This document shows positions 25,801-28,800 of a stretch of DNA of 64,000 nt, piece after piece (the first letter of the stretch is position 1; every line of letters starts with the position of its first letter). A program made the translations under genes and the position numbers. Under the pieces are notes generated by a model, which made no database searches, was not told the DNA's origin, and saw only the letters and a list, made by a program, of their open reading frames with translations. The stretch comes from Tubulanus polymorphus (Eukaryota > Nemertea > Palaeonemertea > Tubulaniformes > Tubulanidae). The stretch lies in NCBI RefSeq assembly GCF_964204645.1, contig NC_134027.1, positions 4,142,485-4,206,484 on the forward strand, written 5' to 3'.

Positions 25801-28800
25801 GAAGATGTGCTGGTAGAATACGGTGCTGATATACACGCTATCGACAGTGGCAGTGGATTCCCTACGAAGGAAACGCAACATAACTTTGAAGAGGATGTTT
25901 CTGTGAGTATTATTTATTCGTCACTGTTACGAATCTGATTATTTCAGTGGACCATTTTGATTTACTGGCGTTGTTCGTGTATTTGTAGGAATATATCGAC
26001 AGTGGCTGGAATTTGAATAATTTACCTGTGGAAGAAAAATCTATTCTTCATCACATAAATGCCAATATATCCGGCATGAAGGTGAGTATACAATGAAAAT
26101 TCGATGATACATACATGTATCGCTTTCCTTTCGAATAGAAACTGTCAAAGCTTCTACTATTAAAGGTAAAAGCCATATTTTTATAACTCGAATCAATGAA
26201 TCCCTTGCGACTGGTTGAGATGGAGAAGAGGTTGGTGGAATTACTGATGTAAATGTTTTGTAGGTCCCCTGGTGTTATGTAGGCATGTGTTTTGCCAGTT
26301 TTTGCTGGCACAATGAGGACCATTGGAGTTACTCAATCAGCTATAATCACTGGTAAGCATAATTTATATTTCTCATCATACGTTTATACTTTGTAGATTC
26401 CCTGGAACTATGTCGGCATGTGTTTTTCGAGTTTTTGCTGGCATAATGAAGATCATTGGAGTTATTCAATCAATTATTTGCACTGGTAAGTATTGAACGC
26501 TGCCCTGTCTGAGCTGCTGTTTTATAATAACACTGAATGCTATATATTACTAAACTGAATTGCTCATTCAGTAAAAAAGAACTTTTGTCTACGATCTGGG
26601 CTGTTTATTGATCCATATCTGTAACTGGGTTAATTTATGTTTTTTCACTGAATTAGTAATTGGAGTTCAACGACAGCAGGCTGATAGGGCAGTGTTAGAG
26701 AGTAGTAATGGCACACTTCTTCTTTGTGACCCATTTTCCTTATTTTGGGTGCAACCCGGTGTTTGTTTTTTTGTCCTGTCTTGTCCCTCAACTGCGTGTG
26801 GTTTTCTTATAAATGTAAATTCCTGGGTTGGTTTCATTTAGTCGCGAATGATTCTCATCAGTGGCTTGAACAAATTGAACATTGAATTCGTCATGATTAT
26901 GAAACTGATCCCTCGATGATATGAAATATGCACAAAGTCTTTAGCAATGATATATGGCGAATGGGTCACAATGTGTGTGAATAATATAATCTTGCACATA
27001 GCACTTATGATATTACATCCTATGATGGAGATGGAAGGTTACAGGTTTCACTGCTCTTCTAGTAAAAAAATACTATCTGAGCTTTAAAAAGAGACTGCAG
27101 GTAGTGTAGTATTTGATCGATAGTAGATTACCAGTAGTGATAGTGCATTGTGTATTCAAATATGACCAGAAAAGCATGTAACACTCCTGATGATGATTGC
27201 CCTAATTTCTTCTTTCAGCTGTTAGATTGCTTTATTGCAGCCTCTAAATGCAACAATCATTTGTATAAGTTGCTCTCTGCACTTTTCTAATGTAAATATA
27301 TTTTTGATAGGGGTGAGCCTAAAACATGGTACGGCGTACCGGGAGATTGCGCGGTTCAGTTCGAAGAAGCGATGAAGAAAACAGCTCCTGAATTATTTGA
27401 AAACGCTCCTGACTTGCTGCATCATATCACTACGATCATGAATCCCAATATTATCATGGATTATGGTGTGCCTGTGAGTTCACTGAACAATCATTTCCCG
27501 GCAGTTACAGTTTTGAATCGTGTCTGCGAATGTTGTATTTCTTTCAATAGGTCGTAAGAACTGATCAATGCGCCGGTGAATTTGTCGTTACATTCCCGAG
27601 GGCTTACCATGCCGGGTTTAACCAGGGATATAACTTTGCTGAAGCTGTTAATTTCTGTCCAGCTGATTGGGTGAGTCATAGATACTGTTAGAGGCCATCG
27701 CTTGTTATAACCTCGCCTTAAATTACTTTGATTACGGAGCCGCCATCTGAAATTCCGCCAAAAACGTTATTTTTCTGTAAAAATTGCTTTTAGAACGGTG
27801 TTTTTACTTTTACCGAAAATACATTTTGCTTTTAACTGAATGACTTTGTTCGATATTTTTCTAGTTACCAATTGGTCGTAGTTGTATAGATCATTACAGT
27901 GAACTACATCGTCAGTGCGTATTCTCTCACGAGGAACTCATCTGTAAAATGGCTGCTGATCCGGATAGTTTAGATCTAAATCTCGCTGCAGTTACGCACG
28001 CCGATATGTTAGCGATGGTTGACTCGGAGAGAAAACTTCGTAAATCATTATTAGATCGGGTGAGTTGTTATTAAAGTTCTGTATTCTTCGGTAACTTATT
28101 TATACAGCGTCTTCCAGTCGGGGAATTATATTTGTTAATGATCGTTTGTTTACAGGGAACGACTGATGCCGAACGTGAAGCATTCGAACTGTTACCCGAC
28201 GACGAGAGACAATGCGATGTTTGTAAGACTACATGTTTCCTGTCGGCGGTCACGTGTTCTTGTTCTAGTAAGTATCTTGGATCAACCCCTTGAAGTCTTC
28301 GTACAGTATTAATTGAGTTATTTGAGTGATTCATCGATGTTTTGATTTATAGCGAGACTGGTGTGTATAAAACACGTTGAAGAGTTATGTTCGTGTTCGC
28401 CGTCGAATCACTGTCTGAGATATCGATACACGTTAGACGAGTTACCGGCCATGTTACATCGCCTGAAAATACGAGCTGAATCGTATGACAACTGGGCAGC
28501 TAAAGTGAAGTTTGCTCTCGAAGCTACCGGCAATCAGAAATTAGGTAAATATCCTGCAATTCTCTTTTGTCTTAAGGTTTCATGAATAGTAGTGGAAGTG
28601 GTGATAGTAGTACCAGTCTTCGTACTCGTGATGCAGTTCTTGCGATACTAAGTTGAAATTAGTCCATTTTCGATGAGTTATCTCTCTGAGTTGAATCAAC
28701 TCAGAACTGTGAAATTTTCCTCCGTTGTAGAATTGCAAGGTTTGAAAGATCTCATACACGAATCAAAAGAGAAGAAATTTCCCGACAATGAAATATTATC

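Follow-up and report, generated by a model that had tools for sequence, protein, structure and literature searches.

Tandem JmjC-core exons probably used as a mutually exclusive pair in the KDM5 gene of Tubulanus polymorphus

The KDM5 gene and its duplicated exon

The window, that is the whole stretch of 64,000 nucleotides of Tubulanus polymorphus contig NC_134027.1 analysed here, contains a gene whose coding region we reconstructed manually by joining open frames at GT-AG sites (Table 1). The reconstruction takes in either of two versions of one exon, A or B. GT-AG ends were found at 31 of 31 introns, which range from 75 to 1,088 nt, and the reading frame is open throughout. In the B form, within residues 1-1,712 of 1,857, JmjN, ARID, PHD, JmjC, KDM5_C-hel, C5HC2 and PLU-1 all scored above their Pfam cut-offs, PHD being matched at three stretches, and JmjN, ARID, PHD, JmjC, C5HC2 and PLU-1 follow one another in that order. 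Because of this domain set the gene is identified from its predicted protein as a KDM5 histone demethylase, and demethylation of H3K4 by its product is predicted from membership in the family. The least certain exon, which may be optional or false, is a possible linker of 72 nt between ARID and the first PHD (23456-23527, + strand), in frame and without a domain match.

Table 1. Coordinates of the KDM5 coding region and of the features around the exon pair, numbered within the window
Feature	Position	Strand	Remarks
KDM5 coding region	19872..34331	+	32 exons, 1,857 aa; GT-AG introns, open frame, Pfam domains
Common upstream exon	25989..26081	+	JmjC region
Exon A	26264..26352	+	Ser at His+10, Asn at His+12; donor GTAAGC
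A-B interval	26353..26396	+	44 nt, below every one of the 31 KDM5 introns (at least 75 nt)
Exon B	26397..26485	+	canonical Asn and Leu; donor GTAAGT
Common downstream exon	27311..27473	+	JmjC region

The initial annotation had described A and B as two tandem exons of 89 nt with consensus splice sites, lying 44 nt apart and differing at 17 bases with neither indels nor in-frame stops. Re-derivation of the coordinates and lengths and recomputation of the differences gave the same picture, with GT-AG sites, and the codon comparison likewise agreed that, among the 10 codons that differ, five are silent and five alter the residue (V/I, C/N, A/S, S/N and N/L, A given first). The two copies form a single direct repeat of 104 nt at 83% identity, a DNA search with the pair found one place in the whole genome, and the JmjC profile scored the copies at 33.8 and 32.1 bits, both above the cut-off; for these reasons the pair is more than a chance likeness. 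Being adjacent and homologous, with equal length, phase and frame, A and B have one of the properties expected of mutually exclusive exons. A repeat search within 25989-27473 found no third copy, and a pattern search for relatives of the pair in collections of viral and genome contigs returned 5 and 22 stretches, of which none was confirmed.

Searches of the 267.8-Mb genome (77 contigs) at the DNA level and with the JmjC and PLU-1 profiles, in which the best candidates were scored, including inspection of seven other JmjC loci, found no second KDM5. All four PLU-1 matches in the genome lie inside the KDM5 gene, as do four of the 21 JmjC matches; one of the other JmjC loci we take to resemble JARID2. 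An assembly artefact or a second gene as the source of the pair is not supported: A and B share a single contig, and among the candidates scored the genome searches reveal no other KDM5.

Reading frame and the interval between the exons

When joined to the upstream exon ending at 26081, either A alone or B alone preserves the frame. Skipping of both leads to a TGA at the second codon past the upstream exon, and joining of A to B, as had been claimed, leads to an immediate TGA, which the junction test places at the A/B seam. Translation across the junctions thus yields no full-length protein from double or null inclusion; a complete KDM5 requires exactly one of the two exons.

The distance separating A from B is short also by the standard of other genes of this genome. 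In kinesin and myosin genes, 54 intron estimates gave a shortest value of 73 nt and none below 60 nt; these were taken between neighbouring exon matches (116 of 229 matches used), with the raw gaps, the smallest being 53, corrected for profile overlap, a procedure that could overlook very short introns inside a match running through stops. Excerpts of two papers place the least workable distance between a 5' splice site and its branch point at about 50 nt (PMC7969005, PMC6692369), so that no branch point inside a 44-nt interval reaches that distance from the A donor. Judged by eye, the likely branch adenines are nucleotides 23 or 26 of this 44-nt stretch. Provided that the branch point lies inside the interval, the spacing predicted from its length would be sterically too small for A-to-B splicing.

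The same constraint is described for the mutually exclusive exons of alpha-tropomyosin and alpha-actinin and for exons 4a/4b of OGDH, in which the distance between 5' splice site and branch point is too short (PMC7969005, in part). Two homologous exons and a branch point within about 50 nt of the upstream donor are common to those genes and to the KDM5 pair. In those systems, however, the intron is longer and the branch point distant, whereas in KDM5 the whole interval is 44 nt; in KDM5 the frame too forbids double use, and the gene and its function differ.

Competing RNA structures were considered as the exon selector and rejected, as the pairing of the A donor, the B donor and the interval with the downstream intron was not above that of shuffled sequences (31, 21 and 19 of 60 shuffles, respectively, were equal or better). 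An inverted repeat extends over the A donor (26330-26356 with 27128-27154, 74%), which we do not claim as a selector because the pairing was no better than in the shuffles.

Exclusion of one exon by the other would be enforced by the frame, and probably also by the shortness of the intron. The proposal of the initial annotation that A and B are used mutually exclusively is well supported by the frame, the very short interval and the signs of coding constraint on A described below, all of them properties of the sequence, and we regard such use as probable.

Further downstream, the intron past exon B contains an imperfect inverted repeat with 21-nt arms at 86% identity (26558-26661, + strand).

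Signs of coding constraint and splice sites of exon A

Differences between A and B fall at codon positions 1, 2 and 3 in numbers of 4, 3 and 10 (Fisher p 0.02 for 7/58 versus 10/29), and the introns flanking the two copies show no similarity above shuffles, whereas the exons are 81% alike. We simulated an unconstrained A beside a constrained B, with two ancestors and two transition weights, and scored the outcomes in which A was free of stops and carried five or fewer residue changes. Such outcomes occurred at frequencies of 0.0007-0.0015 when runs were matched on third-position differences, of 0-0.0008 when matched on total differences and of 0.012-0.0217 when matched on silent codons, the weakest yardstick; an earlier simulation based on synonymous divergence gave 8 of 14,241 and 7 of 14,620. 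The synonymous divergence itself (2.2, with an omega of 0.05) is not relied on, given 12.7 sites and codons with several hits; in a direct count, 5 of the 20 codons that encode the same residue and have an available synonym differ between the exons. The poor fit of an entirely neutral A, with simulated frequencies of 0 to 0.0217, suggests that this copy was probably translated during a large part of its history. Exon A thus appears to be a genuine alternative exon under constraint, though 29 codons are few and a recent loss of its use may be compatible with the data.

An accepted type of alternative exon offers a measure for comparison within the same genome. A myosin gene (L034, G000:C4:4124000-4128500) carries four tandem copies of one motor-domain exon (profile positions about 119-152) at C4:4125126-4126944, with copy starts 553-588 nt apart, and these copies are presumably mutually exclusive. 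Compared pairwise, they show pN of 0.03-0.11 and pS of 0.43-0.89, the corresponding counts for the KDM5 pair being 8 of 74.3 and 9 of 12.7, so that by this rough measure the pair looks similar to accepted alternative exons. Tandem exon copies are likewise a feature that the pair has in common with insect Mhc arrays, as available in excerpts of PMC2257972; Mhc, however, encodes a motor protein, and the myosin copies of this genome are spaced about 550-590 nt start to start.

The two exons differ in the strength of their donors. GTAAGC of A, with a score of 4.6, outranks only 3 of the 30 other KDM5 donors, and GTAAGT of B, with 10.8, outranks 29 of 30; the acceptor scores are similar (7.2 and 6.1). 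Because of its stronger donor, B appears likelier to be the default exon. The weaker donor of A, together with changes that hit otherwise conserved pocket residues, would also suit a relic, namely a duplicated exon rarely or never spliced in and heading for decay. The A frame is nevertheless open, both its splice sites are intact, and its residue changes are too few for neutral drift after duplication, so that we consider this fate of A improbable. Still less credible, and in our view very improbable, is the use of A as a poison exon whose double inclusion lowers the level of KDM5. The immediate stop on joining A to B is what such a device would produce, but it has no need of the coding constraint seen on A, and it requires the removal of an intron of 44 nt, smaller than those of KDM5 and than the estimated kinesin and myosin introns.

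Cosubstrate pocket and the predicted isoforms

In an alignment with human KDM5A, KDM5B and KDM5C, 22 of 30 columns are invariant, among them those of the HxE iron motif, which is found in both A and B as the initial annotation had stated. The alignment also bears out the substitutions reported for A, Ser for Asn at His+10 and Asn for Leu at His+12; the pocket Asn at His+10, equivalent to N493 of KDM5A, is present in B and replaced in A of what is still a KDM5 gene. The initial annotation had called the Asn at His+10 a 2-oxoglutarate contact, and excerpts of the literature agree: KDM5A N493 is treated as a pocket residue in docking work (PMC6360022, PMC11103982), and Asn198 of KDM4A forms a bond with the C5 carboxylate of the cosubstrate (PMC6010108). 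In JMJD5, as far as the available part of PMC9712658 describes it, N327 and L329 lie near 2-oxoglutarate, whose methylenes are normally touched by L329; in our own alignment these residues appear to match His+10 and His+12. KDM6A N1156 is placed near the active site in excerpts of PMC7866879, which do not name it as a 2-oxoglutarate contact. In our comparison, human KDM6 proteins have an Asn also at His+12.

The same two positions were compared, without gaps from the His, in six other JmjC loci of the genome, four of which retain Asn at His+10. The pair reads Asn/Val and Asn/Leu in two KDM4-type genes, Asn/Asn in KDM6 and Asn/Leu in a JMJD6-like gene (L027), while a KDM3-like gene (L029) has Met/Tyr with an Asn at His+8 and a seemingly shorter loop. 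The sixth locus, L028 (G000:C1:29820000-29822000), has Ser/Asn, identical to the pair of exon A and preceded, as in A, by SYS. A piece of L028 aligns without gaps to human JMJD6, with Ser against Asn and Asn against Leu, although the match is weak (E 0.56); the JmjC profile gives this piece 16.3 bits, which is under the cut-off, and the locus 33.5 bits, which is over it. By our reading, the locus contains HAD and later GWHHQV, with the look of a complete iron triad. We take L028 to be a JMJD4-like gene, an assignment made on a weak sequence match; JMJD4 is an active hydroxylase. According to the accessible part of PMC2453528, JMJD4 is the closest paralogue of JMJD6.

These residues bear on the chief rival to a reading of the gene as encoding two demethylases, namely that the exons are mutually exclusive and that the A isoform, devoid of catalytic activity, acts as a scaffold or as a dominant-negative KDM5 still bound to chromatin via PHD and ARID. 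Exon A lacks the Asn that contacts 2-oxoglutarate in KDM4A and corresponds to the pocket residue N493 of KDM5A (excerpts, as above), two of its changes fall in a single pocket strand, and the inclusion of an otherwise conserved pocket Asn among only five residue changes is as expected of a loss of activity. We nonetheless hold a dead A isoform to be unlikely, since the iron ligands and the remainder of the motif are intact in A and L028 has an identical Ser/Asn pair together with HAD and the later GWHHQV, even if the L028 assignment rests on a weak match. With its intact iron motif, L028 favours an altered over a dead A pocket, and in A the Asn may have been relocated by two positions within the strand instead of being lost. 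The suggestion of the initial annotation that the gene makes two demethylases is supported in part: it had overlooked the Ser/Asn pair of L028, which shifts the balance towards an altered pocket, and the reading of two demethylases appears plausible. It is fair to infer that the isoforms would differ in cosubstrate affinity or activity.

The explanation that we favour, and regard as reasonably probable, is that a single JmjC-core exon of KDM5 was duplicated in tandem and then retained as a mutually exclusive pair. Direct splicing of A to B would be blocked because 44 nt would offer U1 and U2 too little space to occupy the same intron, and any double or null products would meet an early stop and be degraded. 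B, whose residues are canonical and whose 5' splice site is the stronger one, would be the probable standard enzyme. A would be selected by splicing in certain cells or at certain stages; it keeps the iron ligands, has its pocket Asn at His+12 instead of His+10 (Asn replaced by Ser and Leu by Asn) and would probably make weaker or re-tuned use of 2-oxoglutarate. A weakened or re-tuned pocket is the most likely state of A because the iron ligands are retained and the Ser/Asn pair recurs in L028 with an intact iron motif. More speculatively, the only KDM5 of this animal might be run as two enzymes that differ in a 30-residue active-site cassette, in which case splicing, with the Asn shifted as in L028, would change the range of 2-oxoglutarate, succinate or 2-hydroxyglutarate levels to which H3K4 demethylation responds.

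If so, the metabolic sensitivity of chromatin would be set by splicing, through a natural active-site swap within a core chromatin enzyme. The two isoforms, with five residue differences of which two lie in the cosubstrate pocket, would lend themselves to telling apart the roles of KDM5 that depend on demethylation and those that do not, and to asking whether development tunes the affinity of a demethylase for 2-oxoglutarate.

The full domain set and the HxE motif are common to this gene and to human and other KDM5 (JARID1) proteins, from which the T. polymorphus gene differs by its second version of a catalytic-core exon. In agreement with the initial annotation, which knew of no KDM5 so arranged, neither such a KDM5 nor mutually exclusive exons of any JmjC core appeared among the matches listed from the open-licence PMC literature, at the level of titles and beginnings of abstracts. 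The accessible part of PMC12153100 reports kdm5 in one of three annelids, there without mention of duplicate exons. The neuronal microexon of LSD1, in excerpts of PMC11605454, is similar in that splicing alters the activity of an H3K4 demethylase, but there a microexon is added and no JmjC catalytic exon is swapped.

Among the other JmjC genes, the two of KDM4 type (L023 and L024, at G000:C2:30440500-30443500 and C10:10063500-10066500) have the pocket strands SINYV and SINYL. Elsewhere in the window, an open frame at 60566-62041 (+ strand) encodes M60-like N-terminal and Peptidase M60 domains and continues in downstream frames, and two open frames, at 38563-38964 (+ strand) and 59085-59576 (− strand), contain PAN domains.
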